This document shows positions 7,151 to 24,113 of a DNA stretch of 64,000 nt, in pieces (positions within the stretch are counted from its first letter, which is position 1; each line of letters starts with the position of its first letter). The translations under genes and the position numbers were made by a program. The DNA is from Candidatus Eremiobacteraceae bacterium. Lineage in GTDB: Bacteria; Vulcanimicrobiota; Vulcanimicrobiia; Eremiobacterales; Eremiobacteraceae. The stretch covers positions 124,001-188,000 of the forward strand of contig DATFYX010000001.1 in NCBI GenBank assembly GCA_035314825.1. Reading direction: 5' to 3'. Below the pieces are notes generated by a model. The model saw only the letters and a list, made by a program, of their open reading frames with translations. It had not been told where the DNA came from and did not search any database.

Positions 7151-7591
7151 ATGCCCGCCGCGCACGCCTACAAGCTCGAATTCGACCGGCGCTTGGCGCC
7201 GGCGCCGCGCAGCGCGCGCACACGCGCCGCCGGAGCTCGCGCCGCGCGCCGCAAGACGATGTCGAGCGCGCGTATCGTCGCCATCGCGATGGTGCCGTTG
7301 ATCCTGATCTTCGGCTACGTCGGCCTCACCGCGGAGCTCGCGGCTCAGACCTATCGCCTCAACGCCGATCAAACGCTGCAGGCACAGCTGGTGCAGACGG
7401 ACGACGCGCTGCGCCAGCGCGTGGCGCAGGCCCAATCCGTCGCACGGCTCGAGGCCGCTGCCGCCGCGCTGCATATGAAAGAGCCCGCGCGCGTCGCGGT
7501 GATCAGATTGCCCGCTCCAAGCAGCAAGCCCACGACCACGGCCTTCGCCGCCGGAATCGCGAGCTTCACGCGCTTGTTCTTCGCGCGCTAG
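7151..7591 (+). CDS. FtsL-like septum protein
   Basis: 146 residues. An Arg/Ala-rich cytoplasmic tail (1-37) is followed by one membrane helix (about 40-62, IVAIAMVPLILIFGYVGLTA). A short coiled-coil stretch (ADQTLQAQLVQTDDALRQRV) and a Pro/Thr-rich end follow. Sequence alone is not diagnostic, but a small bitopic coiled-coil protein between rsmH and the division transpeptidase is where FtsL normally sits. FtsL bridges FtsB/FtsQ to FtsW/FtsI in the divisome. The last hydrophobic stretch (ASFTRLFFAR) is unexplained. Confidence 0.65.
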   Translation: MPAAHAYKLEFDRRLAPAPRSARTRAAGARAARRKTMSSARIVAIAMVPLILIFGYVGLTAELAAQTYRLNADQTLQAQLVQTDDALRQRVAQAQSVARLEAAAAALHMKEPARVAVIRLPAPSSKPTTTAFAAGIASFTRLFFAR

Positions 7592-7610: not shown

Positions 7611-9422
7611 GTGAAGGATAAAGAACGAAGCCGCCTTCGCGCGCGCGCCATCTTCATCTTCTGGGTGTTCTTCCTCGTCACCGGTCTGCTGGCGGCACGA
7701 CTCTATAAGGTACAAGTGCGCGACGGGGCCGCACTCGCGTCCATCGCGGTCGACCAGCACCGCGCGGAATATCCGGTCAGCGGGCGGCGCGGCCGGATCG
7801 TGGATCGCTTCGGCGCGGTCTTCGCGGGCACGTCGCCGGCGGTGCAGGTCTTCGCGCAACCGCCCGACGTGACGGACACGCACGCTGTGGCGCTCACGCT
7901 CGCTCCGCTGCTTCACCAGCCCGCTCCGCTGCTCGAGCGCGAACTGTCGGAACACACGACCTTCATCTACCTCGACCGCATGCGCCCCAAGGCGCTTGGC
8001 GAACGCATCGACGGTCTCGCGCTGCCCGGCATCGGCACGAACGACGAGCCGACGGGCCTGCGCATCGACCCGCAGGGCCGCATCGGCTCGACGGTCATCG
8101 GTTTCACCGGCATCGACAATCAAGGTCTCGCCGGAATCGAAGTGTCGTTCAACGATGTGCTCGCGGGCAAACCCGGCCAGGTCGTCGAGGAGACGGACAG
8201 CCAGCTGCGGCCGATCCCCTTCGGACGACGCGTCGTGCAAGAGGCCGTCACCGGCGACACCGTCGTGCTGACGATCGACCGCTCGCTGCAACTGGCGGCG
8301 GAGGACGTGCTGGCCAAGACGGCGACCAGATACAGCGCGCGCAGCGCCAGCGCGATCGTCTTGCGCGCCGGCACCGGCGAGATCCTCGCGCTCGCCAATT
8401 GGCCGAACTTCGATCCAAACCGCTACGCCGCGTTTCCGCAGGAGTCGTACAAGGACCGCGCGATCACCGATCCCTTCGAGCCTGGATCGACGTTCAAGCT
8501 GATCACGGCGACCGCGGCCATCGACTCCGGCCGCGTCGGGCTCGACGACACTTTTCCCGCCGAGAACGTCATCGATATCGGCGGCTACGTCATCCACAAC
8601 GCCGATGACGGCCTGATGTCATCCGGACACGCGCGCGAAACGCTTTCGGACATCGTCACGTTCTCGCACAACGTCGGCGCCGCGGAAGTGGCGCTGCGCG
8701 TGGGCAAACAGACGATGGGCGAGTACATCAAGCGCTTCGGGCTCGACGAGGTCAGCGGCGTCGACCTGCCTGGCGAGAGCCCCGGCATCATCGACACGCC
8801 CGACCATTGGTACGGTTCGCGCGAAGCCACCATCGCCTTCGGCCAGGGCGTCTCGGTCACGGCGCTCGCCCTTGCGCGGGCGTATGCCGCGATCGCCAAC
8901 GGCGGCCTTCTCATGCGCCCCCTGATCGCGCACGAAGTGCTCGATCCCGACGGGCACGTCGTGCGCGTGTATCAGCCGCAAGCCGTGCGCCGGGTCATGC
9001 GCCCGCAGACCGCCGCGGCGCTGCTCGCGATGCTGCGCAACGTCGTCAGACAAGGTACCGGCACGAACGCCCAGATCGCCGGCTACGCGGTGGCCGGCAA
9101 GACCGGCACGGCGCAGATCGTCGCGCACGGCGAGTATCAGCAGGGCGAATACATCGCGTCGTTCATCGGCATCGTGCCAGCGGACAAGCCGCAGTACGTC
9201 GTGCTCGTCAACGTCGAGCGTCCGCGCGGCGCGTACTACGGCGGCATCGTCGCGGCGCCGGCGTTCCGCGAGCTGGCGCTGCGCGTGCTCTGGCGCGAGG
9301 GCATCCTGCCCAAGCGCACTGACGGCGACCTGGCCGACACCGCGCCGCCTCCGAGCCCCGCGCCCGTGCGCCGCGAGGCGCCCGCCACCGCTCGGAGGAA
9401 TACGACTCCTATACATCAATGA
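7611..9422 (+). CDS. ftsI: Division-specific peptidoglycan D,D-transpeptidase (FtsI/PBP2-type)
   Basis: 603 residues from GTG 7611. One N-terminal membrane helix (about 13-32) precedes a PBP dimerisation region with GRRGRIVDRFGAVFAG. The transpeptidase domain has all three active-site motifs: STFK with Ser293, SHN with Ser352 and KTG at 497-499. It crosslinks septal peptidoglycan with FtsW. The C-terminus is a short Pro/Ala tail with no PASTA domain. Position after the FtsL-like gene supports a division role over elongation. The stop overlaps the murE start by ATGA. Confidence 0.93.
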   Translation: MKDKERSRLRARAIFIFWVFFLVTGLLAARLYKVQVRDGAALASIAVDQHRAEYPVSGRRGRIVDRFGAVFAGTSPAVQVFAQPPDVTDTHAVALTLAPLLHQPAPLLERELSEHTTFIYLDRMRPKALGERIDGLALPGIGTNDEPTGLRIDPQGRIGSTVIGFTGIDNQGLAGIEVSFNDVLAGKPGQVVEETDSQLRPIPFGRRVVQEAVTGDTVVLTIDRSLQLAAEDVLAKTATRYSARSASAIVLRAGTGEILALANWPNFDPNRYAAFPQESYKDRAITDPFEPGSTFKLITATAAIDSGRVGLDDTFPAENVIDIGGYVIHNADDGLMSSGHARETLSDIVTFSHNVGAAEVALRVGKQTMGEYIKRFGLDEVSGVDLPGESPGIIDTPDHWYGSREATIAFGQGVSVTALALARAYAAIANGGLLMRPLIAHEVLDPDGHVVRVYQPQAVRRVMRPQTAAALLAMLRNVVRQGTGTNAQIAGYAVAGKTGTAQIVAHGEYQQGEYIASFIGIVPADKPQYVVLVNVERPRGAYYGGIVAAPAFRELALRVLWREGILPKRTDGDLADTAPPPSPAPVRREAPATARRNTTPIHQ

Positions 9423-10906
9423 CGAATCCGATGCCGACGCTGCTCCGGCGTCTGCTCGCCGGCGTGAGCGACGCGCGCGTGAGCGGCGATCCCGACGTCC
9501 TCATCACCTCGATCAGCATCGACTCGCGGCGCGTCGAGCGCGGCGGCCTGTTCGCGTGCCTGCGCGGATTGCACGCCGACGGGCACGTGCATGCGGCTGA
9601 GGCGGTAGCCTCCGGCGCGGCCGCCGTGCTGGCCGAGCATGACGTCGAGATCGGCAGCGCGCCGCTGGTCGTGGTCCCGTCCGTGCTCGCGGCCCTTTCG
9701 CCGATCGCGGCCGAGCTGTGGGGCCGCCCCGCCAACGCGCTCACGTGCGTCGGGGTCACCGGCACGAACGGCAAGACGACGACGACGCACATCTTCGAGG
9801 CGATCGCCGCGGCCGCCGGCCGCTCGTTCGGCCTGATCGGAACGTTAGGTGCGCGCTTGGGCGACAAATTCTCCGTCGATCTGGCGCATACGACGCCCTA
9901 CGCGCACGATCTGCAGGCGCTGCTCGCGCGCTTTCGCGCGGCGGGAGCGAACGGAGCGGTGCTCGAGGTCTCCAGTCACGCGCTCGCCATGCATCGCGTC
10001 GACGACGTGGAGTTCGACGTGGCCGCGCTGACCAACATCACGCACGACCATCTCGATTTCCACGGCAGCTTCGAGACCTACGCCAACACGAAGCGGCGCC
10101 TGTTCGAGCTGGCACGGCGCAACGAGGTGAAGCCGCATGGGATGTGCGTCATCAATCTCGACGATGCTGAAGGCAGGCGCCTCGCCGCCGAGCTGCCCGC
10201 CGCGCTGAGCTACGCGGTGGACAATCCGGATGCCGCGCTGCGTGCGGTCAACGTCGAGCTATTCGCCGACGGCTCGCGCTTTTCGGTGCCCGCATTGCGC
10301 CCCGCGCCGTTCATGATGCGACTGCCCGGGCCGTTCAACGTCGCCAACGCCATGACCGCGATCGCATGCGCGAGCGCGCTTGACTTCGACGTCGAAGCGA
10401 TCGCGCAAGGGCTGCTCGCGGTCAGCGCTGTGCCCGGCCGGATGACGCAGGTGCCCGCCGAGCGCATCGGCGTCTATGTGGACTACGCGCACACCCCCGA
10501 CGGCTTGCGCAACGTCTTGCGCGCGGCGCGCGCGCTCACCGAGCACCGCGTGGTGTGCGTGTTCGGCTGCGGCGGCGACCGCGACCCGCTCAAGCGTCCG
10601 GTGATGGGGCGCATCGCGCGCGAGCTCGCCGATCACGTCGTGCTGACGACCGACAACCCGCGCTTTGAAGATCCCAAGCGCATCATCGACGACGTGCTTG
10701 CCGGCATGGAAGGCGCCGGCGCCAGCTATAGCGTCGAGCCCGACCGGGCGCGCGCCATCGAGAGCGCCATCGCAGAGGCCGAGCCAGGCGACGTCGTCGT
10801 GATCGCCGGCAAGGGCCACGAATCGTATCAGCTCATCCGCGGCGATCGCGTGCCGTTCTCGGATGTGAGCATGGCCGAGGCCGCCATCCGCAAGGCCGGC
10901 GCATGA
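9419..10906 (+). CDS. murE: UDP-MurNAc-L-Ala-D-Glu:meso-diaminopimelate ligase MurE
   Basis: 495 residues, normal for MurE. It shows the Mur-ligase three-domain pattern: UDP-substrate domain with SIDSRRVERGGLFAC, ATP loop GTNGKTTTT from Gly115, and a C-terminal domain with DYAHTPDGL. Residues 412-415 are DNPR, the motif that distinguishes meso-diaminopimelate enzymes from L-Lys-adding ones. The cell wall is therefore inferred to be of the meso-DAP type. The start overlaps ftsI and the end overlaps murF, each by 4 bases. Confidence 0.95.
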   Translation: MTNPMPTLLRRLLAGVSDARVSGDPDVLITSISIDSRRVERGGLFACLRGLHADGHVHAAEAVASGAAAVLAEHDVEIGSAPLVVVPSVLAALSPIAAELWGRPANALTCVGVTGTNGKTTTTHIFEAIAAAAGRSFGLIGTLGARLGDKFSVDLAHTTPYAHDLQALLARFRAAGANGAVLEVSSHALAMHRVDDVEFDVAALTNITHDHLDFHGSFETYANTKRRLFELARRNEVKPHGMCVINLDDAEGRRLAAELPAALSYAVDNPDAALRAVNVELFADGSRFSVPALRPAPFMMRLPGPFNVANAMTAIACASALDFDVEAIAQGLLAVSAVPGRMTQVPAERIGVYVDYAHTPDGLRNVLRAARALTEHRVVCVFGCGGDRDPLKRPVMGRIARELADHVVLTTDNPRFEDPKRIIDDVLAGMEGAGASYSVEPDRARAIESAIAEAEPGDVVVIAGKGHESYQLIRGDRVPFSDVSMAEAAIRKAGA

Positions 10907-13131
10907 GCAGGTTGACGCTGTCGCGCTTCCTTGAAGCGTCGGGCGGCAGGCTGGCCGGCACTGCGCGGCTCGAGGCAGACACGCCCTTCGTCCCCAGCAC
11001 CGACTCGCGCACGCTGCGCCCCGGCGAGACCTTCGTGGCCCTGCGCGGGGAGAGCTTCGATGGCCATCATTATATAGGGGCTGCGCGCGCCGCCGGAGCA
11101 GCGGCGCTGGTCGTCGACCGCCTCGAGGCGGTACCGGCCGGCTGCGACGTCGTGGTGGTGGCCGTGGACGACGCCAAGGCCGCGTACCTGCGCGGCGCCG
11201 CAGCGGCACGACGCATGGCGGCGCGGACGCTCGTGGTCGCCATCACGGGCAGCGTCGGCAAGACGACCACCAAGGCGTTCGCGGCGCAGCTCATCGGCCG
11301 TTTTCGCCGCGTCATCGCCACACCCCAGAACGAGAACAACGAACTGGGGGTGGCAAAGCTCTGCTACGCCATCGGCGACGGCGTGGACGTCGCGATCGCG
11401 GAGTTCGGCGCGCGCCACCCGGGCGAGATCACGCAGCTTGTCGAAATCGCGGCGCCCGATGTCGGCGTGTTGGTCAACGTCGGAGAGGCGCATCTCGAAT
11501 TCTTCACGAGTCGCGAAGAGCTCGCACGCACCAAGTTCGCCATCTTCGGCGCGGGCGCTCGAGCGGTGTGCAATGCGGCCGACGAGTGGACGCGCCGTCT
11601 TGCCATCGAAACGGGCATCGCCGAACGCGCGCTGTGGGTGCGGCTGTGCGGCGAGCCGGACATGCCGGGTCTGACGCTCGAGGCCGGTGAACCGCGCGAC
11701 GGCCGCGTGCCGCTCTCGCTCGGCGCTTCGCACGCCTTCGCTGCCTGGCACCTGATCGGCGAGCACCATCTGCGCGACGCGCTGCTCGCCGCCGCCGCCG
11801 GGCTGCAGTGCGGCTTGCGCTTCGAGGAGGCGATCGACGGCTTCGGCGATCTGCGCTTGCCGCCGGGCCGATTCGAGCAGCACGCGTTGCCCAGCGGCGC
11901 GATCGCGGTCTACGACGCGTACAACGCAAGCCCGACCTCGATGCGCCACGCGCTGCGCGCGTTCGCGTCATTGCCCGCTCAACGCCACATCGCCGTGTTG
12001 GGCAGCATGGCCGAGCTCGGTGAAAGTGCACCCACCGGACATGCGCGGACCGGCGCGGCCGCCGCGCAGAACGGGATGGACGCTCTCTACTGCGGTGGCG
12101 ACCACGCGCAGGCGATCGCGCTCGGCGCGCTCGAGGCCGGCATGGCGCCGACGGCCGTGCACACCTATGTGACCAATGCCGAGATCGCACAAACGCTTCG
12201 CGCTCAGCTGCGCGAACGCGATGCCGTGCTGTTGAAGGGCTCTCGCATCCAGCGCATGGAGGAGATACTGGACGTTCTGCTCGCCCCCGAGAGCGGCACG
12301 TCTGCAGCACCGAAAGCCGAGACGTCTGAGGCGGCGAGAGCCGCCGAAGCCGAGTCGGGGAGGGAGATTGTCCCGAAGCTCTCCGGCGTTCTCGGCGCAG
12401 GTGCTGCAGACGTGCCGCTCTGGCACGCGAAGACGTTCGATGTGCGCGCTCCTGAGCTGCCCGCGCGCATCGTCGCGCTGCCGGTGCGCACGCCTTTGGT
12501 CAAGCCCGGGGATGACCTCGCCGCGCTCGTCGCGCAGTGCGTGCGCGGCATCGCGGACGGCGACGACGTCGCGTGCATCTCGGAGACCGCCGTCGCGATC
12601 GCGCAAGGACGCTCGATTCCGGCGGAGTCGATCCGGCCGGGCCGGCTCGCGCGCATGCTCGCCGATCGCGCCGGATCGTATGCGACGATGAATCAGCCCG
12701 AATCGATGCAGCTGGTGATCGAGCACGTCGGCGCCGCCAAAGTGGTGGCAGCGGCCGTCGCAGGGGCGGCCGGCAGGCTGGTCGGCAGGCGCGGGGACTT
12801 CTATCGCATCCTCGGCCCGGCCGTCGCCGAGATCGACGGCTACACGGGCACGATGCCGCCATACGAACGGCATATCGTGCTGGGCCCGCAAGATCCGCAG
12901 GCCGTCGCCGAGCAGATCGCCCCCGCGTGCGGCGCCCACGTCGCCATCGTCGACGCCAACGACCTGCACAAGGTCGAAGTGCTTGGCGCAAGCGCAGCCG
13001 TGAACCGCGACGCGGTGCGCGCCTGCCTGCGCGACAACCCCCATGGCAACAGCGATCAGCAGACGCCGATCGTCGTGCTCAAGTATCGGCCCACCCCGAG
13101 CTCGCCCGCGGCTTCGCCGCTGCTGCTCTGA
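10903..13131 (+). CDS. murF: MurF ligase fused to an F420-0:gamma-glutamyl-ligase-like domain
   Basis: 742 residues, against about 450 for ordinary MurF. Residues 1-460 are MurF: STDSRTLRPGETFVAL, ATP loop GSVGKTTTKA from Gly116, EFGARHPGEI, AYNASPTSM and the end motif LLKGSRIQRMEEIL. MurF adds D-Ala-D-Ala to the UDP-MurNAc-tripeptide. A low-complexity Ala/Glu linker (about 460-524) leads to residues 525-730, which resemble the CofE/F420_ligase fold family: LVKPGDDLAALV, SIRPGRLARMLADRAG, PESMQLVIEHVG, RRGDFYRILG, AIVDANDL and TPIVVLKYR. The frame is open throughout, so this is a real fusion as read. What the second domain does is unknown; see findings. The stop shares one base with the mraY ATG. 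Confidence 0.9.
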   Translation: MSRLTLSRFLEASGGRLAGTARLEADTPFVPSTDSRTLRPGETFVALRGESFDGHHYIGAARAAGAAALVVDRLEAVPAGCDVVVVAVDDAKAAYLRGAAAARRMAARTLVVAITGSVGKTTTKAFAAQLIGRFRRVIATPQNENNELGVAKLCYAIGDGVDVAIAEFGARHPGEITQLVEIAAPDVGVLVNVGEAHLEFFTSREELARTKFAIFGAGARAVCNAADEWTRRLAIETGIAERALWVRLCGEPDMPGLTLEAGEPRDGRVPLSLGASHAFAAWHLIGEHHLRDALLAAAAGLQCGLRFEEAIDGFGDLRLPPGRFEQHALPSGAIAVYDAYNASPTSMRHALRAFASLPAQRHIAVLGSMAELGESAPTGHARTGAAAAQNGMDALYCGGDHAQAIALGALEAGMAPTAVHTYVTNAEIAQTLRAQLRERDAVLLKGSRIQRMEEILDVLLAPESGTSAAPKAETSEAARAAEAESGREIVPKLSGVLGAGAADVPLWHAKTFDVRAPELPARIVALPVRTPLVKPGDDLAALVAQCVRGIADGDDVACISETAVAIAQGRSIPAESIRPGRLARMLADRAGSYATMNQPESMQLVIEHVGAAKVVAAAVAGAAGRLVGRRGDFYRILGPAVAEIDGYTGTMPPYERHIVLGPQDPQAVAEQIAPACGAHVAIVDANDLHKVEVLGASAAVNRDAVRACLRDNPHGNSDQQTPIVVLKYRPTPSSPAASPLLL

Positions 13132-14096
13132 TGCCGGCGGACAGCACGTCCGTCTTCCTGCTCGTCGCGTTCGCCGTCGGCGCGCTCCTGGCCGCCGCGA
13201 TCATCCCAGCGCTCATCTCGTGGCAGCGCCGGCGCGAGCTCGGACAGCAGATCTACGAAGACGGTCCCGCGTCGCACGCCGTCAAACGCGGCACGCCGAC
13301 GATGGGCGGCATCGCCTTCATCGCTGCAGCACTGGCCGGCGCGTTCATTCCGCCGATCGACGCCGTGTGGCGCTGGCCGGTCGTCTTGCTCGTCATCGCG
13401 GCCGGGGCGATCGGCTTCGCAGATGATTACCTTAAGCTCGTGCGGCGCCGCCCGCTCGGACTGCGGGCGCGGGCCAAGTTCGCGCTGTTGCTCATCGTCG
13501 CCGCGTGCTTTACCGCCTGGGCGTGGCAGGCGCACCAATTCGCCGCCGTCTGGTTCACCGGATACGTGGCGCTGCCGCCATGGCTGTGGGCCCTTCTCGC
13601 GGTGTGTGCGATCGTCGGCGCCGCCAACGCGGTGAACCTGACCGATGGCCTGGACGGGCTCGCCGCCGGCGCAGCGATACCGCCGCTCATGCTCATGAGC
13701 TTCCTCTTCGCCGGGACCATCGCAGCAGCGGTGGTCGGCAGCTGCGCCGGATTCTTGTACTTCAACCGCCATCCCGCGCGCATCTTCATGGGCGACACCG
13801 GCGCGCTCGCTTTAGGCGCGCTGCTGGGCGGGCTCGCGATCGAATATAACTTCCTGCTCGTGTTGCCGCTCATCGGGATCGTCTTCGTGCTCGAGGCGCT
13901 CTCCGTGATCGTGCAGGTGATCAGCTTCAAGTCCACAGGCCGGCGAGTCTTCAAGATGACGCCGCTGCATCATCATTTCGAGATGTCCGGTTGGCCCGAA
14001 GGCCGAGTGACCGGCGCGTTCATCGCGGCGTCGTTCTGCGCGACGTTCGTCGCGCTCGTGTTCCTCTTGATCGGCGCGCGAGGCCTCGCGCTGTAA
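13131..14096 (+). CDS. mraY: Phospho-MurNAc-pentapeptide transferase MraY
   Basis: 321 residues from ATG 13131, overlapping the murF stop by one base; this start gives the usual N-terminal helix. About ten membrane helices. Family motifs are HAVKRGTPTMGGIAF, GFADDYLKL, NAVNLTDGLDGLAAG (Asp-rich catalytic region), RIFMGDTGALALG and KMTPLHHHFEMSGWPE. The enzyme moves phospho-MurNAc-pentapeptide from UDP to undecaprenyl phosphate, making lipid I at the inner face of the cytoplasmic membrane. It ends directly against murD with no gap. Confidence 0.96.
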   Translation: MPADSTSVFLLVAFAVGALLAAAIIPALISWQRRRELGQQIYEDGPASHAVKRGTPTMGGIAFIAAALAGAFIPPIDAVWRWPVVLLVIAAGAIGFADDYLKLVRRRPLGLRARAKFALLLIVAACFTAWAWQAHQFAAVWFTGYVALPPWLWALLAVCAIVGAANAVNLTDGLDGLAAGAAIPPLMLMSFLFAGTIAAAVVGSCAGFLYFNRHPARIFMGDTGALALGALLGGLAIEYNFLLVLPLIGIVFVLEALSVIVQVISFKSTGRRVFKMTPLHHHFEMSGWPEGRVTGAFIAASFCATFVALVFLLIGARGLAL

Positions 14097-15530
14097 ATGC
14101 CGAACGATGAGGTAGTGAAGCTCGTAGAGGGCGACCGCGCGCTGGTCATCGGCGTCGGCCGCAGCGGCATGGCGACCGCGGCCGTGCTGCGCGACCGCGG
14201 CCTTCACGTCGCCGCCTACGACGACAAACCGCTCGAGCAACTCGCCGCGCAGCGCGACGATCTCGCCAAGCTCGGCGTCGAGCTCGCGGGCAAAGACGCG
14301 CTCGCCGCGGCAGCCGACGGCGCGACCGTCGCGATCCTTTCCCCTGGCGTACCGCTTAACAACCCGGCCGTTCTAGAAGTCCAACGCGCGGGCGTGCCCG
14401 TCATTTCGGAGATCGAGGCGGCGTACCGCATCGCCCAGGCGCCGATCATCGCGATCACCGGCAGCAAAGGGAAGTCGACCACGACCGCTTTGACCGCGCA
14501 CTTGCTGCGCGCTGCCGGCGTGTCCGCCCGCACCGGCGGCAACATCGGCAACCCGCTGATCCGCGAAGCCGCGCTCGCCCAGGCCGGCGAGTGGCTCGTC
14601 GCCGAGGTCTCGAGCTTCCAACTCGAAGGCATCAGCACGTTCCACCCGCGCGTCAGCGTGCTGCTCAACATCTCGCCCGATCATCTGGATCGCTATCCTT
14701 CGATGGATGAGTATCGCGAAGCCAAATTCAGGCTCTTCGCGAACCAGATCGAGACCGATTGGTTCGTCGGCAACGCGGACGATGCCGCGGTGCGCGAACT
14801 GCGCGACGGACCGGTCAGGCGCCTGCGCTGCGGCGACGCGTGGTTCTCGGGCCTCGGAGCAGATGCCGCCGACGTGGTGGTCAAAGGCGGCTGGATCGTG
14901 CGCCGCGGCCGCTCGAACGAGGCGGCCAAGTACGTGCCGGTCATCGCCGCATCGGAACTGAAGATCAAGGGCGCCCATAACGTCGCCAACGCGATGGCCG
15001 CGTATCTCGCCGCGTCGCTGGCGCTCTTGCGCGGCACCCAGATCGGCACGTCCGACGACGCATTCGTGGCCGCGCTGCGCAGCTTCGAAACGCTCCCCCA
15101 CCGCCTGCAGACGGTCGGCGTTTCGGGCGGCGTGCGCTGGGTCGACGACAGCAAGGCGAGCAACCCGGACGCCGTCGTCAAGGCGCTGGCCGCGTTCGAC
15201 GAACCGCTGATACTCATCGCGGGCGGCCGCAGCAAGCGGACGGACTTCAGCGCGCTGGCCAAAGCCGCCTCAGCGCGAGCCAAGCTCGTCGTGCTGATCG
15301 GCGAAAGCGCGCGCGAGATCGGCGCGCTCATGGAAAAAGGGCCGATCGTCTATGCCGCCTCGATGGACGCCGCCGTGGCGGCCGCGGCGGAAGTCGCGAC
15401 GCGCGGCGACGTCGTCCTGCTCTCACCAGGTTGCGCTTCGTTCGACATGTTCGACAGCGCTGAGCAGCGCGGCGATGTCTTCGCAGCGGCGGTGCGCTCG
15501 CGCAGCGGCGCGACGGCGAACGCATCGTGA
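14097..15530 (+). CDS. murD: UDP-MurNAc-L-Ala:D-Glu ligase MurD
   Basis: 477 residues. An N-terminal Rossmann-like nucleotide fold (ALVIGVGRSGMATAAVL) is followed by the ATP loop GSKGKSTTT from Gly122, the SSFQLEG and LNISPDHLDRYPSMDEY motifs, and a C-terminal domain with VDDSKASNPDAV and SPGCASFDMFDSAEQRGD. It adds D-Glu to UDP-MurNAc-L-Ala in the cytoplasm. The ATG abuts the mraY stop, and the end overlaps the ftsW GTG by 4 bases, as expected for tight co-translation. Confidence 0.95.
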   Translation: MPNDEVVKLVEGDRALVIGVGRSGMATAAVLRDRGLHVAAYDDKPLEQLAAQRDDLAKLGVELAGKDALAAAADGATVAILSPGVPLNNPAVLEVQRAGVPVISEIEAAYRIAQAPIIAITGSKGKSTTTALTAHLLRAAGVSARTGGNIGNPLIREAALAQAGEWLVAEVSSFQLEGISTFHPRVSVLLNISPDHLDRYPSMDEYREAKFRLFANQIETDWFVGNADDAAVRELRDGPVRRLRCGDAWFSGLGADAADVVVKGGWIVRRGRSNEAAKYVPVIAASELKIKGAHNVANAMAAYLAASLALLRGTQIGTSDDAFVAALRSFETLPHRLQTVGVSGGVRWVDDSKASNPDAVVKALAAFDEPLILIAGGRSKRTDFSALAKAASARAKLVVLIGESAREIGALMEKGPIVYAASMDAAVAAAAEVATRGDVVLLSPGCASFDMFDSAEQRGDVFAAAVRSRSGATANAS

Positions 15531-16753
15531 CTTCAGCGCGGCGCGCGCCCGACGCGACCCTGCTCATCGTCGCCGCGCTGCTCACCGCGATCGGCGCGAT
15601 CATGGTGTTCTCCGCCTCGTCGGTCGTGGGGATCACGCGCTACCACGACGCGGCGCATTTCTTCAAGCGCGAGCTGGTCTGGGTCGCGCTCGGCGGCCTG
15701 GCCTGCTGGATCGGTATGAAACTCGATTACGGCGTCTTGCGCCGCGCCGCTCCATGGCTGTTGGGAGTTGCCGTCGTCCTGCTCGTCGGCGTGCTGTTCC
15801 CGCATTTCGGCGCGATGGAGGGCGGCGCGCGGCGCTGGTACGAGTTCGGCCCGCTCTCGTTCGAGCCGTCAGAGTTCGCGAAGCTGGCGCTCATCGTCTT
15901 CTTGGCCAAGCTGCTCGCGGACCGCGAGGACAGCGCACGCGACTTCAGCACGATCGGCTTTCCGGCACTGTTCTGGGTGGGCGTATGCTTCATGCTCGTA
16001 TTGCGCCAACCGGACCTCGGCACGGCGACGCTCTTCTTGATGATAGCGTTCTTCATGCTGTTCGCCGCCGGAGCGCGCTTGAGCCACCTCGCCATCGGCA
16101 TCGCCGTCGCCGTGCCGGCGCTGCTCGCATTCGTCTACGCGAGCCCGTACCGGCGCGCGCGCTTCACCGCATTCCTTGATCCCAACGCCGATCCCCAAGG
16201 CACCGGGTATCACATCTTGCAGTCGCTGTATGGCTTGGGCTCAGGCGGCATCTTCGGCGTCGGTTTGGGCGCGAGCCGGCAGAAGTTCGGCTACTTGCCG
16301 GAACAGTACACGGACTTCATCTACTCCGTGCTCGGCGAAGAGCTCGGCTTCATCGGCGCGGCGACCGTGCTCGTGCTGTTCTTGTTGTTCGCCTACCGCG
16401 GGTTGCGCATCGCCATGAAAGCCGAAGACCGCTTCGGCTTCTTCCTCGCGGTCGGCATCACGGCGTCCATCGCGCTCCAAGCGTTCATCAACATCGGCGT
16501 CGTGACGTCGACGTGGCCGGTCACCGGCGTGCCGCTGCCGTTCATCAGCTACGGCGGCACGTCGCTGGTCATGAGCTTGTTCGGTGTGGGCCTCTTGGCC
16601 AGCATCTCGCGCGGTCGGTCGCGAGCGGCGCAAGCCGCCGAAGAACGCATGAGGGAACCACGCAGTGCGCATCCTGCTCACCGGCGGCGGCACGGGGGGT
16701 CACCTCTACCCCGCGCTGTCACTAGCGCAAGCGCTCTCCGGCGCGCCCGCTGA
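15527..16753 (+). CDS. ftsW: Septal peptidoglycan glycosyltransferase FtsW (SEDS family)
   Basis: 408 residues from GTG 15527. Ten membrane helices with SEDS motifs: GGARRWYEFGPLSFEPSEFAKLAL, VLRQPDLGTATL, YHILQSLYGLGSGGIFGVGLG, DFIYSVLGEELGF and GVPLPFISYGGTSL. FtsW polymerises lipid II and pairs with FtsI. The reading frame runs 89 bases into murG; the last 35 or so residues (Arg/His-rich, starting near MREPRSAHPA) are an out-of-frame reading of the murG 5' end and probably lack a conserved role. The long overlap is odd for this cluster, where others are 1-14 bases. Confidence 0.94.
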   Translation: MTSARRAPDATLLIVAALLTAIGAIMVFSASSVVGITRYHDAAHFFKRELVWVALGGLACWIGMKLDYGVLRRAAPWLLGVAVVLLVGVLFPHFGAMEGGARRWYEFGPLSFEPSEFAKLALIVFLAKLLADREDSARDFSTIGFPALFWVGVCFMLVLRQPDLGTATLFLMIAFFMLFAAGARLSHLAIGIAVAVPALLAFVYASPYRRARFTAFLDPNADPQGTGYHILQSLYGLGSGGIFGVGLGASRQKFGYLPEQYTDFIYSVLGEELGFIGAATVLVLFLLFAYRGLRIAMKAEDRFGFFLAVGITASIALQAFINIGVVTSTWPVTGVPLPFISYGGTSLVMSLFGVGLLASISRGRSRAAQAAEERMREPRSAHPAHRRRHGGSPLPRAVTSASALRRAR

Positions 16754-17855
16754 CCCAGGGGTCTGCGCTCCGGACGACGGCGAACCGCGCCTCGCGTTCC
16801 CGAATGACGCGCACGCACTGCTTTTCGTCGGCACCCGCGGCGGCATGGAGACGCAGATCGTCGCGCGCGCGAACGTCGCGGCCGCATACGTGCGCAGCCG
16901 TCCGCTCTCGCGCACGTCATTCGCCGCGGCCGCAGGCGGCGTCGCCGCCAACGTGATCGGCACCGGCGAAGCGCTGCCGATCGTGCGCAAGTTCAATCCG
17001 CAGGTCATCATCGCCACGGGCGGCTACGCGAGCGTGCCGGTGGTGATGGCCGCTGCGACGCTGCGGGCGTCGGGCGGCCTGCGCGGCGCCAAGATCGTGC
17101 TGCTCGAGCCCAACGTCGAGCCTGGACGCGCCAATCGCTTCATGGCCGCTGCGGCGGACGAGGTGTGGGGCGCGTTCGAGGAGACCGCCGCGTTTTTCGG
17201 CCGAAAATTCGTGGCGACAGGCATCCCCGTGCGGCCGGAGATCTACGCGCGCCCGACGCAGGTCGAAGCGCGGCGCAGTCTCGGCCTGGATCCGAAGCTG
17301 GCGACAGCCATCATCTTCGGCGGCAGCCAGGGTGCGCGCAGCATCAACGTCGCTACCAGCGGCATGGTCGCGCGCCGGCGTCTGCCACCGGGCCTCCAAG
17401 TGCTGCACATCGCCGGCGAGCGCGATCACGAATGGATGGCGGCCGAACGCAAAGTCGAGAGCAACGCCAACCGTTACCAGCTCGTCCCCTATCTCGACAA
17501 GATGGAGCTTGCCTACGCGGCGGCGGACATCGCCGTGTGCCGCGCGGGCGCTTCGACATTGGCCGAGCTTGCAGTGGTCGGGCTGCCGTCCATCTTGATC
17601 CCGTACCCGCACGCGGCGGACGACCACCAGCGCAAGAACGCCGCGGTGTTCGAACGGCACAACGCCGCGCTGGTGATCGAAGACAAAAAGCTCGACGCCG
17701 ACGCGCTCTACTGGGCGCTGCTGCAAGTGCTGACGCCCGAGAAGCTGAGCGCCATGCGGTTCGGCGCGGCATCGCTGGCTCACCCGCGCGCGCTGCAGAC
17801 GATGGTCGAGCGCATCATCAAGGGCCAGATCGGCAAGACGCCGGCTCCCGCCTGA
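16665..17855 (+). CDS. murG: Lipid II synthase, UDP-GlcNAc transferase MurG
   Basis: 396 residues from GTG 16665, which gives the canonical RILLTGGGTGGHLYPALSLA N-terminus. An insertion of about 20 residues (SGAPADPGVCAPDDGEPRL) follows the first helix. Other motifs are FVGTRGGMETQIV, LLEPNVEPGRANR, GGSQGARSIN and CRAGASTLAELAVVGLPSILIPYPHAADDHQ. The enzyme adds GlcNAc to lipid I at the inner membrane face. The first 89 bases lie inside the ftsW frame. murC does not follow directly; a peptidase gene comes next. Confidence 0.95.
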   Translation: MRILLTGGGTGGHLYPALSLAQALSGAPADPGVCAPDDGEPRLAFPNDAHALLFVGTRGGMETQIVARANVAAAYVRSRPLSRTSFAAAAGGVAANVIGTGEALPIVRKFNPQVIIATGGYASVPVVMAAATLRASGGLRGAKIVLLEPNVEPGRANRFMAAAADEVWGAFEETAAFFGRKFVATGIPVRPEIYARPTQVEARRSLGLDPKLATAIIFGGSQGARSINVATSGMVARRRLPPGLQVLHIAGERDHEWMAAERKVESNANRYQLVPYLDKMELAYAAADIAVCRAGASTLAELAVVGLPSILIPYPHAADDHQRKNAAVFERHNAALVIEDKKLDADALYWALLQVLTPEKLSAMRFGAASLAHPRALQTMVERIIKGQIGKTPAPA

Positions 17856-17868
17856 GAAAGGTCACGCC

Positions 17869-19749
17869 GTGACGCACGGACTGTTCAATCTATTCGTCGC
17901 CATGGTGCTGACACTGCCCGTCGCCGCCGCGGTGGCGCCCGCCGACGTGGCCACCTATCTCCAGATCAAAGGGCAGACCGGGCCTTCGCTCTCTCCCGAC
18001 GGTTCGCTTGTGGCGTTCAGCTTCGCCGGATCAGGCGTGTCGCAGGTATGGATGGCGCCGATCGCCGGCGGCGAGCCCACAGAGGTCACGAGCGGACCGG
18101 AGCGGGCGGACTTCAAAGCCTGGTCGCCCGTCGATCCGAATCTCATCATCTTCGGACGCGATCGCGGCGGCGACGAGAACTGGAATCTGATCGCGACCGA
18201 TCCAAGCGGCGCACGGCTAGAATCGCTCACGGCTGACGCGGGCATCCAGCACAACTTCGGCGGCTTCTCGTTCGACGGCAAGAGGGTCGCCTTCGCATCG
18301 AATGAACGCGACCGCGAATTCTTCGACGTCTACACGCTGGCGCTCGCGCACGGCGCACAGCCCAGCCGGGTGCTGCAGCAAGACAGCGATAACCGGCCGG
18401 TCGCATGGTCGCACGATGGCAACAGCTTGCTGGTCAGCATTCGCAGGGACAACTTCGACAACGACCTGCTGCTCATCGACCTGCGGCGCGACGCGTATCT
18501 CGCGCGGCTGCTCACCGCGCACAGCGGCAACGCGGATTTCGAAAGCTGTCACTTCTCGAGCGACGACACCAAGCTCTACTGCGTCAGCGACTACGGCGGA
18601 CGCGAGTACCGCGGGCGCGCGGTGATCGACATCGCCGGCGGTAAGCACATCAGCTTTCTCGACGATGGGCCGTACGATGTCGACTCGCTGACCATCTCGC
18701 GCGACGGCACGAAGATGGCATACGTGCGCAACCGCGATGGATACGGCGAGCTAATCATCGCGGATGTGGCGACCGGCAAGACGCTCGCGACGCCGGCGCT
18801 CCCGCCGGGCGTCGCGGCCGCGCCGACGTTCTCTGCTAAGGGCGACGAGCTGGCGTTCGAGTTCTCGGGCCCGGCCAACCCGGGCGCCATCTGGGTCTAC
18901 AGTTTTCTGAACAAGCGCGCGCGCCAGGTGACCGCGCCGAAACTGGCGGGCATCGCGCCGAGCACGTTCGTGCAGCCGAGCCTCGTCTCGTTTCCATCCT
19001 TTGACGGGCGATCGATCCCTGCGTGGTACTACAAGCCGAAGAACGCGAGCGGCCCCCTGCCGGTGATCGTCGACGTCCACGGTGGACCCGAGGCGCAGGC
19101 GCGCCCCGTCTTCAATCCCATCACGCAGTACTTCATCGCGCGCGGTTATGCGGTATTGGTCCCCAACGTGCGCGGCAGCAGCGGTTACGGCAATACGTAT
19201 CTGCATCTCGCGGACGTGCGCAAACGGCAAGACTCGGTGAAAGATCTGCACGCGGCGCACGACTGGCTCATCGCCCACGGCGGCGCGGATCCCAAACGCA
19301 TCGCGCTCTATGGCGGCTCCTACGGCGGCTACATGGTGCTCGCCGGATTGACCGAGTTCCCGGACGATTGGGCCGCCGGCGTCGACATCGTGGGCATCTC
19401 CGATTTTGTCACATTCTTGGAGCACACGAGTTCGTACCGCCGCGCCAACCGCGAGGGCGTCTATGGCTCGCTCGCGCAGGACCGCGACTTCCTCGAGTCG
19501 ATCTCACCGCTCAATCACATCGACAGCGTCGTGGCGCCGCTCATCATCTTCATGGGCGCGAACGATCCGCGCGTGCCGGCGGCCGAAGGGCAACAGATGG
19601 CCGACGCGCTCAGGGCCAAAGGCGTGCCGGTCGAGCTGACGGTCTTCCCAGACGAGGGCCACGGCATCGCGCGCGATGCCAACCGCATCGTCGCCTACAC
19701 CCAGATCGCCGTCTTTCTCGACCGCTACATCGGCCCGGGCCAGCCTTAG
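17869..19749 (+). CDS. Exported S9-family prolyl oligopeptidase-like serine peptidase
   Basis: 626 residues from GTG 17869. A signal peptide (hydrophobic 5-22) is followed by a WD40/TolB-like beta-propeller (about 40-360) and an alpha/beta-hydrolase domain. Catalytic residues are visible as Ser484 (GGSYGGYM), Asp566 (NDPRVP) and His598 (EGHGIA). S9 acyl-aminoacyl/dipeptidyl peptidases cut short peptides, the propeller restricting access. The signal predicts a periplasmic enzyme. It follows murG after 13 bases, in the place where murC usually sits, and may be co-transcribed. Whether it works on wall-derived peptides is speculation. Confidence 0.9.
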   Translation: MTHGLFNLFVAMVLTLPVAAAVAPADVATYLQIKGQTGPSLSPDGSLVAFSFAGSGVSQVWMAPIAGGEPTEVTSGPERADFKAWSPVDPNLIIFGRDRGGDENWNLIATDPSGARLESLTADAGIQHNFGGFSFDGKRVAFASNERDREFFDVYTLALAHGAQPSRVLQQDSDNRPVAWSHDGNSLLVSIRRDNFDNDLLLIDLRRDAYLARLLTAHSGNADFESCHFSSDDTKLYCVSDYGGREYRGRAVIDIAGGKHISFLDDGPYDVDSLTISRDGTKMAYVRNRDGYGELIIADVATGKTLATPALPPGVAAAPTFSAKGDELAFEFSGPANPGAIWVYSFLNKRARQVTAPKLAGIAPSTFVQPSLVSFPSFDGRSIPAWYYKPKNASGPLPVIVDVHGGPEAQARPVFNPITQYFIARGYAVLVPNVRGSSGYGNTYLHLADVRKRQDSVKDLHAAHDWLIAHGGADPKRIALYGGSYGGYMVLAGLTEFPDDWAAGVDIVGISDFVTFLEHTSSYRRANREGVYGSLAQDRDFLESISPLNHIDSVVAPLIIFMGANDPRVPAAEGQQMADALRAKGVPVELTVFPDEGHGIARDANRIVAYTQIAVFLDRYIGPGQP

Positions 19750-20690
19750 TGGATCGCGACGCCGCCCGTGCCGTTCACGCCGAAGCCGGTAAGGGTCAGG
19801 AGCATCGGTACCGGCATATTGCCGCTAAACGTGGCGGCAGCGTTTGAGAAGAGGTACAGTTGTGGGCTCTGGATGTTGGTGGCGTAGAGGTTCCCGTTTG
19901 AATCGAACGCAAGCGCGCCCGCATTCGTGATCAGCGTATTCGAACCGGTTTGCTCGACGCTGATCGGGCCGCCGCCCGCAGTGGGCGCGGTGAAGCGGTC
20001 GATATTGCCATTGGTGTTCAAGGTGTAGAGATTGCCGGCAGCATCGAAGACCAACGCGCCCGGTTGGCTCGAGCCGGTGAGCGGTGCGGCGGTCGGCAGC
20101 TGGCCTGTCGAAAACGGCGGATTGAATATCTCGATGGCGCCCAAACCGAGGATCCCCTTGGACACATAGAGGTTTCCCGCGCTATCGAACGCGAGGCCGG
20201 ACGGCGCCGTGACGCTGCTGATGACGACCGCCGGCGCCGGTGTCACCGAACCGCTGAACGGCGGTGTGAACTTCAACACCAGGTTGGTCCCACCATCAGC
20301 GACCCAGAGATTCCCAGAGCTGTCGAAGGCGAGCGCGACCGGATTCTTGGCACCCGGGATATTGATCGTGGCAAACGGCGTGCTGGCGTTTGAAAGCGGC
20401 AGGCTGTAGCCGTTCACGGCAGCCGTCGAAAAATCGTTGACCGCCCATAGGTTGCCCGAACCGTCGAACGCCAGCGCGGTCACGGCATGCAGCCCAGCCG
20501 GAGCGACGATGGTCGGGACAGAGCTGACGGTGGCCGGAAGGCCCACAATCGCGATCTGAGACCCCGAGTTCGCAAAATTGCTGACGTAGACGTTGTGAGC
20601 CGCCGCAGGCGGCGGCGGGTTGACGGAGGCGGCCGAGCAGCCGGCCGATGCGAGTGCGGCCAGTCCGGCCAACAGACATAGGCGCTTCAC
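19746..20690 (-). CDS. Beta-propeller (NHL/SMP-30-like) lipoprotein
   Basis: 314 residues. The lipoprotein signal ends at LASAGC (Cys17). The rest is a repeated beta-propeller: a unit of the type ALAFDSNGNLYATN / LAFDSSGNLWVADGG recurs about six times at 40-45 residue spacing. Such propellers usually bind ligands or proteins; no catalytic residues can be assigned. It is transcribed against the dcw cluster, with its stop codon interlocked with that of the S9 peptidase (19746-19749). It therefore interrupts the run from murG to murC. Confidence 0.8.
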   Translation of the reverse strand: MKRLCLLAGLAALASAGCSAASVNPPPPAAAHNVYVSNFANSGSQIAIVGLPATVSSVPTIVAPAGLHAVTALAFDGSGNLWAVNDFSTAAVNGYSLPLSNASTPFATINIPGAKNPVALAFDSSGNLWVADGGTNLVLKFTPPFSGSVTPAPAVVISSVTAPSGLAFDSAGNLYVSKGILGLGAIEIFNPPFSTGQLPTAAPLTGSSQPGALVFDAAGNLYTLNTNGNIDRFTAPTAGGGPISVEQTGSNTLITNAGALAFDSNGNLYATNIQSPQLYLFSNAAATFSGNMPVPMLLTLTGFGVNGTGGVAIH

Positions 20691-20854
20691 AGGTCACTCC
20701 TCATGTGGTCGGCAGCGGCAGATCGATAAGGTTGCACGCCGCCGTTCCCTGCCGGGTATACGAGTCCTGGTGTCGCGTGCGCCGCGTTAAGAATGTCGAG
20801 TTGCGCCTGCTCACACAGGGGCCGAATGTCGGGACACCTAAATCAACAGTCCGG

Positions 20855-22273
20855 ATGATATCGTACCGTCACGTCCACTTCGTCGGCATCGGCGGCGTCG
20901 GCATGAGCGCGATCGCGCGAGTGCTGCTCGCCATGGGCCTGACGGTCTCCGGTTCGGATCTCAAGACGACCGGCACGCTGGAGAAGCTGCGCGCGCTCGG
21001 CGCCCGCGTTTATCTCGGACACGGCTCGGGCAATATCAAAGGCGCCGACGCCGTCGTGATCTCTTCAGCGATCCCCCAGGACAACCCCGAAGTCATCGCC
21101 GCGCAGCGCGCGCGTGTGCCGGTGCTGCAGCGCGCGGAGATGCTGGCGCAGATCATGGCGGACAAGCGCGCCGTCGCGGTCTCGGGCACGCACGGCAAGA
21201 CGACCACGACGTCGATGATCTCGCTCGTGCTCGACGCCGGCGGTTTCGAATCCACGGTGCTCATCGGCGGCGAGGTCAACGATCTTGGCGCCAACGCGCG
21301 CTTGGGCAGCGGCGACGTCGTCGTCGCCGAGGCTGACGAGAGCGACGCGTCGTTCTTGCGCCTCACGCCGACGTGCGCCGTCGTGACGAACATCGAGAAC
21401 GACCATCTCGGCTACTACCGCGACCTCGGACACCTCATCGACACGTTCTCGCTCTTCATCAACCGCGTGCCGGCGTCGGGCAGCATCGTCGCTTCAGCCG
21501 ACTGCCCCGCAGTCACCGAATTGATCCGGCGCTTCTACGAATCGCCCAAGCTGCTCGGCGACCCGAAGGTGATCACGGCCGGCTTTGACGCCGCCGCCGC
21601 GGTGCGCGCGGACGATGTGCGCCTGGCGGACTTCGGCTCGGCCTTCACGGTGCACCAGCGCGGCGAACCGCTGGGAGAAGTGCGCTTGCGCGTGCCCGGC
21701 CGCATCAACGTCCACAACGCGCTGTGCGCGATCGCGGTCGGCCTGGAGTTCGGCGTGCCGTTCGAGCTCATCGCGCAGGCGCTGGCCCGCTTCCGCGGCG
21801 TCGCACGCCGCTTCCAGATCCTCTACGATGACGAAGCCCTCAAGATCGTCGACGATTATGCGCACCATCCGACCGCGGTCCAAGAGACGATCGCCGCCGC
21901 GCGCGCGTATTGGGCCGGCCACATCGTCGTCGCGTTCCAGCCGCATCGCTACAGCCGCACGGCATATCTGTTCCGCGATTTCGCGCATGCTCTGCTCGGC
22001 GCGGACGAGATCATCGTGACGGACATCTACGCCGCGGGCGAAGTGCCGCTGCCGGGCGTACGCGCCGAGTCGATCGTCGAATGCGTGCGCGATCTCGACG
22101 CGGCCAAAAAGGTCACGTACCTGCCCAAGACGGCCGACGTCCTCGCCTATCTGCAGCGCACGCTCGGGCGCGGTGATCTTGCGCTGACGCTCGGCGCCGG
22201 CGACATCGGCGGCGTCGCCCACGAGCTCGCCGCCACGCTCTCGGTGGCCGACGTCGGGATCGGTTCGCGTTAG
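20855..22273 (+). CDS. murC: UDP-MurNAc:L-Ala ligase MurC
   Basis: 472 residues from ATG 20855 (ISYRHVHFVGIGGVGMSAIA), which fits the family start. The frame is open upstream to 20648, but that part shows no homology and overlaps the lipoprotein gene. ATP loop GTHGKTTTT from Gly111; EADESDASFL, NIENDHLGYY, HHPTAV and QPHRYSRT are MurC motifs. It starts the stem peptide by adding L-Ala to UDP-MurNAc. The 164-base space upstream contains a possible TATACG -10 box but no convincing -35. murB follows without a gap. Confidence 0.95.
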   Translation: MISYRHVHFVGIGGVGMSAIARVLLAMGLTVSGSDLKTTGTLEKLRALGARVYLGHGSGNIKGADAVVISSAIPQDNPEVIAAQRARVPVLQRAEMLAQIMADKRAVAVSGTHGKTTTTSMISLVLDAGGFESTVLIGGEVNDLGANARLGSGDVVVAEADESDASFLRLTPTCAVVTNIENDHLGYYRDLGHLIDTFSLFINRVPASGSIVASADCPAVTELIRRFYESPKLLGDPKVITAGFDAAAAVRADDVRLADFGSAFTVHQRGEPLGEVRLRVPGRINVHNALCAIAVGLEFGVPFELIAQALARFRGVARRFQILYDDEALKIVDDYAHHPTAVQETIAAARAYWAGHIVVAFQPHRYSRTAYLFRDFAHALLGADEIIVTDIYAAGEVPLPGVRAESIVECVRDLDAAKKVTYLPKTADVLAYLQRTLGRGDLALTLGAGDIGGVAHELAATLSVADVGIGSR

Positions 22274-23170
22274 GTGTTCACGCCGGAACAGCGCGCCTCG
22301 CTCACGAGCATGCTCGGCAAGCACATCGAATTCGACGCCCCGCTCGCTCCCAAGACCTCGATGAAAGTCGGCGGTTCGGCCGCCGCGTACGCCGAGATCG
22401 GCGGCGTCGTCAACCTCGCCGCCGTGTTGAGCCTGTGCGAGCAGCAGTCGATCCCGTGGACCATCATCGGCTTCGGCAGCAACCTGCTCGTGCCCGACGA
22501 GGGCTACCCCGGCCTCGTCGTACGGCTCATCGGCGACTTCACCAAAGTGAGCATCAGCGGCACGCGCGTGCGCGCCGGCGGCGCGACGCCGATCGTGTCG
22601 CTGTGCCGCGAGGCCGCGCTGGCCGGGCTGAGCGGCGCTGAGGGCCTGGTCGGCATTCCCGGCACCGTCGGCGGCGCGGTGCGCATGAACGCCGGCACCG
22701 ACGTCGAGATCGGCGACGTCATCAAGCGCGTCGAAGTGCTCATCGCGGGCGAACCGCTGCAGACGTTCACCACGCCGGAGTTCTCGTATCGGCGTTCGTC
22801 GCTGGACCGGCGCGCGGTCGTCACCGCGGCCGAGCTCGAGCTGCAGCCCGGCGACCCCGCGGCGGTGCAGGCCGAGCTCAAGCGGCGCATCGCCAAGCGC
22901 AATTCCACGCAGCCGCTCGAGCTGCCGAACGCCGGCAGCATTTTCCGCAACCCGCCAGGCGACTACGCCGCCCGGCTCATCGAGACGACCGGGTGCAAGG
23001 GCTGGCATTGGGGCGGCGCAGAGGTGTCGGACAAGCACGCGAACTTCATCGTCAACCGCGGCGGCGCGACGTATGCAGACGTGCTGGCGCTGATCGAGCG
23101 CGTGCGCGAGGCGGTCAAGGCCAAGCACGGGGTGGAACTGGAACTGGAAGTACATCTTCTCGGAGGGTAG
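22274..23170 (+). CDS. murB: UDP-N-acetylenolpyruvoylglucosamine reductase MurB
   Basis: 298 residues, type II MurB length, from GTG 22274 directly after the murC stop. FAD-binding segments: KTSMKVGGSAAAYAE, GFGSNLLVPDEGYPGLVV, GLVGIPGTVGGAVRMNAG. The proton-donor Ser lies in NAGSIFRNPPGDYAARLIE (near residue 221), and the catalytic Glu is probably in the end segment VELELEVHLLGG. The enzyme reduces enolpyruvyl-UDP-GlcNAc with NADPH to give UDP-MurNAc. It forms a murC-murB-ddl unit. Confidence 0.95.
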   Translation: MFTPEQRASLTSMLGKHIEFDAPLAPKTSMKVGGSAAAYAEIGGVVNLAAVLSLCEQQSIPWTIIGFGSNLLVPDEGYPGLVVRLIGDFTKVSISGTRVRAGGATPIVSLCREAALAGLSGAEGLVGIPGTVGGAVRMNAGTDVEIGDVIKRVEVLIAGEPLQTFTTPEFSYRRSSLDRRAVVTAAELELQPGDPAAVQAELKRRIAKRNSTQPLELPNAGSIFRNPPGDYAARLIETTGCKGWHWGGAEVSDKHANFIVNRGGATYADVLALIERVREAVKAKHGVELELEVHLLGG

Positions 23171-23183
23171 ACGCACGACGACG

Positions 23184-24113
23184 ATGACGCGGCCCAAGAT
23201 CGCGGTCGTGATGGGCGGTGACTCGGCGGAACGCGAGATCAGCCGGCAGACCGGTGCCGGCGTCGTGGCGGCGTTGGATGAGCTGATGTATCCCACCGTG
23301 CAGCTGGATTTCGACGAGCGCCTCGCCGACGCACTGCGGGAGGCTCGCCCCGACGCCGTGTTCAATGCGCTGCACGGCGGCACCGGCGAAGACGGCACAC
23401 TCCAGGCGATCCTCGACTGGCTGCGCATCCCATATCAGGGATCCGGCGTGCGTGCTAGCGCGATCGCGATGGACAAGTGGATCACCAAGGCGCTCGCCCG
23501 CACGCTCGACATCCCGGTGCCTCGAGGGGTTCGGTTGGACGTCGCGGCCGGCGAGGCCGACCGCATTCCTGACATGCCGGGCCTGCCCTGCGTCGTCAAG
23601 CCGGCGGCGCAAGGTTCTGCAGTGGGCGTCAGTATCGTGCATTTCGCGGAGCAGTGGGCGGACGCCGTCTGCGAGGCGAGCAGCTTCGGCACGGCGATCC
23701 TCGTCGAAGAGTACATCGAGGGCCGCGAATTCACCGTCGCGGTCCTGGACGAGCGCGCACTGCCGGTCGTCGAGATCACGCCGCACGACGACTTCTACAC
23801 CTATCACGCCAAGTACACGGCCGGCGCGAGCACGCACGTCGTGCCCGCGACCATCGCCGAGCATCTGGCGCAGCGCATGCAGGAGCACGCCCTTCGCCTG
23901 CATCGCGCGCTGGGCTGTCGCGACTACTCGCGCGTCGACGTCTTGATGTCGGTCACCAATTCGATGTATGTGTTGGAGTGCAACACGCTGCCGGGATTGA
24001 CGCCCCTCAGCCTCTTCCCCGAGGCCGCTGCCGCAGCCGGAATCGGGTACGCGGCGCTCATCGAGCGGCTCGTCCAGGCCGCGCTGTCGCGCGGCGGGGT
24101 GCGCGCATCGTGA
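23184..24113 (+). CDS. ddl: D-alanine:D-alanine ligase
   Basis: 309 residues. ATP-grasp architecture with N-terminal IAVVMGGDSAEREIS, HGGTGEDGTLQAILDWL, KPAAQGSAVGVSIV, VEEYIEGREFTVAVL and LECNTLPGLTPLSLFPEAA. It makes the D-Ala-D-Ala substrate of MurF; alanine racemase (27631-28776) provides D-Ala nearby. The loop HGGTGEDG differs slightly from the commoner HGxxGEDG, which is not a functional concern. The end overlaps the next gene by GTGA. Confidence 0.94.
   Translation: MTRPKIAVVMGGDSAEREISRQTGAGVVAALDELMYPTVQLDFDERLADALREARPDAVFNALHGGTGEDGTLQAILDWLRIPYQGSGVRASAIAMDKWITKALARTLDIPVPRGVRLDVAAGEADRIPDMPGLPCVVKPAAQGSAVGVSIVHFAEQWADAVCEASSFGTAILVEEYIEGREFTVAVLDERALPVVEITPHDDFYTYHAKYTAGASTHVVPATIAEHLAQRMQEHALRLHRALGCRDYSRVDVLMSVTNSMYVLECNTLPGLTPLSLFPEAAAAAGIGYAALIERLVQAALSRGGVRAS

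Follow-up and report, generated by a model that had tools for sequence, protein, structure and literature searches.

Why does the murF frame of this cell-wall gene cluster run on, without interruption, into a domain of the F420_ligase superfamily, and what might such a domain do directly ahead of mraY? The window (the whole 64-kb stretch of DNA analysed) carries dcw genes in the order mraW-like methylase, small gene, ftsI, murE, fused gene, mraY, murD, ftsW, murG, S9 peptidase, murC, murB and ddl. An ftsI-like penicillin-binding protein gene (7611–9422, +; Transpeptidase and PBP_dimer domains) is followed by murE (9419–10906, +; three Mur ligase domains, named by place and domain order), directly upstream of the fused gene. 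Directly downstream lies mraY (13131–14096, +; 321 aa, Glycos_transf_4 and MraY_sig1), then murD, ftsW and murG (14097–17855, +; MurD-like_N plus Mur ligase domains, FTSW_RODA_SPOVE and Glyco_tran_28_C), and then murC, murB and ddl (20648–24113, +; Mur ligase domains, MurB_C and Dala_Dala_lig).

Two further genes of the cluster deserve mention. The small gene between the mraW-like methylase and ftsI (7151–7591, +; 146 aa) has no Pfam match, and its place and size suggest ftsL. Between murG and murC lies an S9 prolyl-oligopeptidase-like gene with beta-propeller repeats (17869–19749, +), which occupies the same place in two related genomes, G021 and G022, and is absent there in the other family members read (L034–L039).

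The fused gene

The fused open reading frame (10903–13131, +) starts with ATG and spans 742 codons with no stop inside. Its MurF part (residues 1–460; 10903–12282, +) contains the P-loop GSVGKTTTK at residue 116 and matches the TIGR01143 murF model over residues 33–459 at 318.6 bits against a cut-off of 288.6, with the entire model covered (positions 1–418 of 418). An Ala/Glu/Pro-rich linker (residues 461–506; 12283–12420, +) leads into the CofE-like domain (residues 507–742; 12421–13128, +), which includes its own N-terminal strand. We set the linker boundaries from the starts of stand-alone versions of the domain gene, which fall at about the equivalent of residue 507. The fused gene then meets mraY in a TGATG overlap (13129–13133, +), where its stop codon and the mraY start codon share one base, the last of the former and the first of the latter. 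The source genome (2.55 Mb, 97% complete) encodes no other full MurF and no other PF01996 protein.

The sequence is 66% G+C, and an open frame by itself is therefore weak evidence of fusion. Indeed, long open frames span the same junction in several other genera, yet murF lies in another frame there, which marks them as chance open frames of G+C-rich DNA. The first-pass annotation had named a sequencing frameshift, concealing a stop between residues 460 and 525, as one finding that would refute the fusion. The source genus comprises three genomes, and the MurF–CofE-like fusion is common to all three: G021 carries it at full length, and G022, whose contig begins inside murF, carries it in frame from the MurF C-terminus. 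Because the fusion is genus-wide, it is not a frameshift. Comparison of the three genomes gave a pN/pS of 0.22–0.28 for the added domain and 0.27 for MurF over its full length, against 0.86–0.92 for the linker (residues 460–511). The CofE-like domain is thus under purifying selection, and the linker is near-neutral, with little constraint. Together, the in-frame fusions in G021 and G022 and the pN/pS values rule out both a frameshift and a chance open frame.

Fold and conserved residues of the added domain

The first-pass annotation had read the extension of the murF frame as an F420_ligase-like domain, likened to CofE. The fusion and the superfamily assignment are confirmed, with the start of the domain refined as above. 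PF01996 (F420_ligase) matches residues 528–673 at 48.8 bits against a cut-off of 25 (E 8e-13), a match that spans model positions 2–131 of 218 only; the domain segment alone scores 52.2 bits. An AlphaFold2 model of the domain, with 40 homologues in the input, reached a pLDDT of 91.2 and a pTM of 0.87. In a Foldseek search of the PDB with this model, five matches had E ≤ 0.001, all of them Archaeoglobus fulgidus CofE, and the next stood at E 0.7; the best superposed with a TM-score of 0.61 (E 2e-9) at 21% identity. The added domain is, on this predicted structure, a divergent member of the F420_ligase superfamily with a confidently modelled CofE-like fold. The likeness to CofE itself did not hold. 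On TIGR01916, the CofE equivalog model, the domain scores 43.2 bits, below the cut-off of 180.65, the residues that contact F420 appear changed, and the source genome yields neither CofD nor a CofH match over cut-off.

The comparison with CofE (A. fulgidus structures 2PHN, 2G9I and 7ULD), an enzyme whose active site lies where two subunits of a dimer meet, shows where the two part. CofE uses GTP and two Mn2+ ions to convert a carboxylate to an acyl phosphate that is then joined to glutamate, a mechanism that its authors liken to that of MurD, and it contacts the F420 ring through G153–C155 and R234 (PMC10861534). By hhalign profile alignment, the N-terminal half of the domain and the strand bearing D150 (TDTN in CofE, VDAN here) match CofE, and the GDDL and GR motifs can also be aligned. 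The CofE motif SKAEGR, however, reads AIAQGR in the domain, with K replaced by I and E by Q. D150 aligns to D684, and the CofE stretch G153–C155 reads DLH or DLG, in a region past D150 where the alignment is uncertain. The domain is shorter than CofE at its C-terminus, and the CofE tail that bears R234 has no counterpart. The F420-contact residues therefore look, from alignment, to have been lost throughout the domain family.

Other positions are strongly kept. About nine acidic or polar residues are invariant or nearly so across the class, the phylum and Cyanobacteria, a set that includes E561, D645, T650, D684, N686, D687, N712, N716 and T721. The invariant D645 resembles by eye D109 in the NAGID motif of CofE, which we take to be a metal ligand, but the profile alignment puts another residue there. 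This pattern of conservation favours a putative catalytic site.

Gene order in the class and the wider family

What the class (families f1–f3) shares is the gene order, not the fusion. We read the surroundings of the domain gene in 104 class genomes. murF lies immediately upstream in 103, including the three fused cases, and the remaining one is a contig end; mraY is the next gene downstream in 100 and follows after a gap of about 250 bp in one, and the other three are contig ends. Class-wide, the domain gene thus has murF on one side and mraY on the other, with nothing between, wherever both sides are readable. The first-pass annotation had asked whether the fusion is conserved in relatives: it is so within the genus, and elsewhere in the class the domain is its own gene at the same place, which rules out the fusion as a class-wide trait. 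The conserved, ancient feature is the gene order, not the fusion. In the tree, the class domains form one clade (support 100/100) in which the three fused sequences nest as a single event (96/95), and the fusion arose once, in the source genus. Thirteen class genomes had no PF01996 match. Two of these hold fragments at contig ends; the other 11, in which no copy was detectable, are all draft assemblies, a few of them 90–95% complete (G039 is at 95%), and the absence possibly stems from assembly gaps.

Beyond the class, the family is widespread and its settings differ. PF01996 matches occur in 132 of the 149 genomes of the phylum. In the other classes the domain forms the C-terminal part of a 390–440 aa protein encoded away from mur genes, and the same long form, likewise away from mur genes, is found in 25 of 117 sampled Cyanobacteria. 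The N-terminal part of the long form consists of a transmembrane helix and a beta-sandwich, for which the predicted structure shows a weak likeness to adaptin-ear and ApaG domains. A search of 117 class genomes for this N-terminal partner, run without a positive control, gave no match. Roughly 45 of 149 sampled Bacillota carry the domain, in up to three copies each, and in most of these, as in Cyanobacteria, its gene is not beside wall-precursor genes. The first-pass annotation had also named, as a refutation of its reading, a lineage in which the domain is a separate gene unrelated to murF. In part this holds: in Cyanobacteria, most Bacillota and the other classes of the phylum the domain gene lies away from murF, but these are branches of the tree other than that of the class.

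A second fusion links the domain to the cell wall. In three related Bacillota genomes (L250, L251 and L252) its fusion partner is an N-acetylmuramoyl-L-alanine amidase (Amidase_3, E about 1e-32); no obvious signal peptide is seen, and the fused gene abuts a MurJ/SpoVB-like flippase gene on the same strand. We count these three as one event because they are close relatives; it is an event separate from the MurF fusion. The tree joins the class to the amidase-fused and short Bacillota forms (89/92) and sets the long forms apart. The conserved murF–domain–mraY order and this separate fusion to a muramoyl amidase lend support to the cell-wall role that the first-pass annotation had suspected.

Several further occurrences of the family were recorded. 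In some Bacillota (L274:5457–5996, L275, L249 and L253), the helix and beta-sandwich part has a gene to itself, immediately ahead of the CofE-like one, and this gene had no Pfam match. In cyanobacterial loci such as L104, L109 and L134, the next gene after the long form, in the same orientation, encodes a GNAT-like protein of about 410 aa, and past it come ruvX/yqgF-, DUF3727-, mltG- and yqeG-like genes, named by eye from their sequences. Two unannotated faecal sequences labelled Bacteriophage sp. (MT835656.1:5930–6607 and MT838774.1:2266–2889) encode the domain at 31–37% identity; they may be bacterial contigs. Searches of plasmids and of defence and phage protein libraries gave no match.

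Candidate functions of the domain

What, then, could a CofE-like domain do between MurF and MraY? We tentatively favour, at somewhat less than even confidence, an NTP-dependent amide ligase that modifies the muropeptide precursor on its way from MurF to MraY. The fused protein would be a two-part enzyme in which a flexible linker tethers a normal MurF to a divergent ligase domain of the CofE type. With a nucleoside triphosphate and a divalent metal, the domain would turn a free carboxylate into an acyl phosphate and then couple it to an amine. The likeliest target would be the soluble UDP-MurNAc-peptide that MurF produces, at the free carboxylate of D-isoglutamate or diaminopimelate for instance, and the modification would come just before MraY moves the precursor to the membrane. 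Fusion would hand the MurF product over directly. The link to the wall is well supported by context; we infer the catalysis, the amide product, the wall-precursor target and the amine added, be it glutamate or another. Since residues of the CofE motif are lost, glutamate cannot be assumed as the donor, and with the SKAEGR residues changed and the C-terminal region shorter, even nucleotide and donor may differ. Counting against the proposal, the window contains a complete Mur ligase set and Ddl, so no classical step is missing. The settings away from wall-precursor genes in Cyanobacteria and most Bacillota, and the 11 class genomes with no detectable copy, also speak against it.

Known systems offer partial parallels. 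Mur ligases and MurT/GatD extend or amidate muropeptides in the cytoplasm through an activated carboxylate, and their folds are unrelated to that of the CofE-like domain. MurT itself is rejected as the enzyme that modifies the stem in this class, since MurT_C is absent from 116 of 117 class genomes. NCBIfam describes fusions of MurE to MurF (NF008896) and of MurF to alanine racemase (NF008897), which likewise couple MurF to a precursor-pathway enzyme, whereas the domain added here does not belong to the classical pathway. In Streptococcus pyogenes, the qim operon for cell-surface modification includes qimC, a protein of the F420-ligase fold (PMC13059722); we liken it to our domain by description only, and its operon is of a different type with no link to murF. 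Chlamydia FolC2 (CT611, COG1478) is a CofE homologue in a bacterium that lacks F420 genes, where it has taken on a different ligation of the glutamate type (PMC1971073). In that respect it resembles our case, but FolC2 adjoins folate genes and replaces FolC, whereas our source genome has FolC and the domain lies among wall genes.

The alternatives differ in whether the domain is still a ligase and, if so, on what it acts. Having lost the K and E of the CofE motif, it could now serve as a regulatory or scaffold module linking MurF with MraY, which might work through a bound nucleotide, glutamate or the UDP-precursor, and both its place between the two genes and its fusion to MurF would fit. Such invariance of about nine acidic or polar residues in very distant lineages, even where murF is no neighbour, is nevertheless typical of a catalytic site, and we regard a pure coupling role as unlikely. 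We judge in much the same way a role as amide ligase on a different small molecule, be it a cofactor, an osmolyte or a lipid head group, with the gene only happening to lie in the dcw operon. The wider family does occur in genomes away from wall genes, and the tasks of PF01996-type proteins are diverse, ranging from F420 to folate in Chlamydia (PMC1971073) and the role of qimC in the qim operon (PMC13059722). That reading sits poorly with the fusions to MurF and, separately, to a muramoyl amidase, and with the unbroken murF–domain–mraY order. The amidase fusion, lacking an obvious signal peptide, would instead suit a salvage enzyme whose substrates are recycled muropeptides or stem peptides and not newly made precursor; for the class, the MurF fusion and the place ahead of mraY suggest a synthesis route, and salvage is improbable.

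The cofactor pathways fare worse. For a FolC2-type dihydrofolate/folylpolyglutamate synthase there is the Chlamydia precedent, in which a CofE homologue replaces FolC (PMC1971073), but the source genome encodes a full FolC (346 bits against a cut-off of 162.65, E 2e-103), as do nearly all class genomes. This rules out replacement of FolC and makes a FolC2-type role very improbable. A true CofE making F420 would account for the PF01996 match and the fold, and it is the least credible reading of all: against it stand the TIGR01916 score of 43 bits (cut-off 180.65), a family search of the source genome that found no CofD, CofH-like matches there that all fall below threshold, and the apparent change of the F420 contact residues. 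The sub-threshold CofH-like matches are probably enzymes of the futalosine route to menaquinone. We therefore reject F420 synthesis as the function; with no CofD, no CofH over cut-off and a normal FolC, a part in either F420 or folate synthesis is unlikely. Elsewhere, G141, G142 and members of families f14 and f16 encode a true CofE (E about 1e-62), with FolC matches that are absent or weak and at the level of Mur ligases; G141 and G142 also have no CofH over cut-off. By analogy with Chlamydia, CofE in G141 and G142 may serve as a folate synthase.

A bolder form of the wall-precursor proposal, possible but doubtful, is that throughout the class a CofE-fold ligase, with no kinship to Mur ligases or ATP-grasp enzymes, attaches an amino acid or another amine to UDP-MurNAc-pentapeptide between MurF and MraY, that the stem peptide carries an unrecognised substituent, and that the relatives in Bacillota and Cyanobacteria also act on muropeptides. 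No paper dealing with this gene, or linking MurF to CofE, came up in a search of literature that covered few subscription journals.

Taken together, a divergent CofE-like ligase domain is found in a wall-synthesis setting, at the murF–mraY junction, which is among the parts of bacterial gene order that have been studied best. An extra enzyme-like gene fixed there class-wide suggests that not all bacteria follow the textbook precursor route, and points to a so far unrecognised step in the synthesis of cell-wall precursors. It also gives a functional hypothesis to a widespread CofE-like family whose database label, F420, is impossible in such genomes. Should the activity be shown, the domain would represent a new type of peptidoglycan-modifying enzyme.
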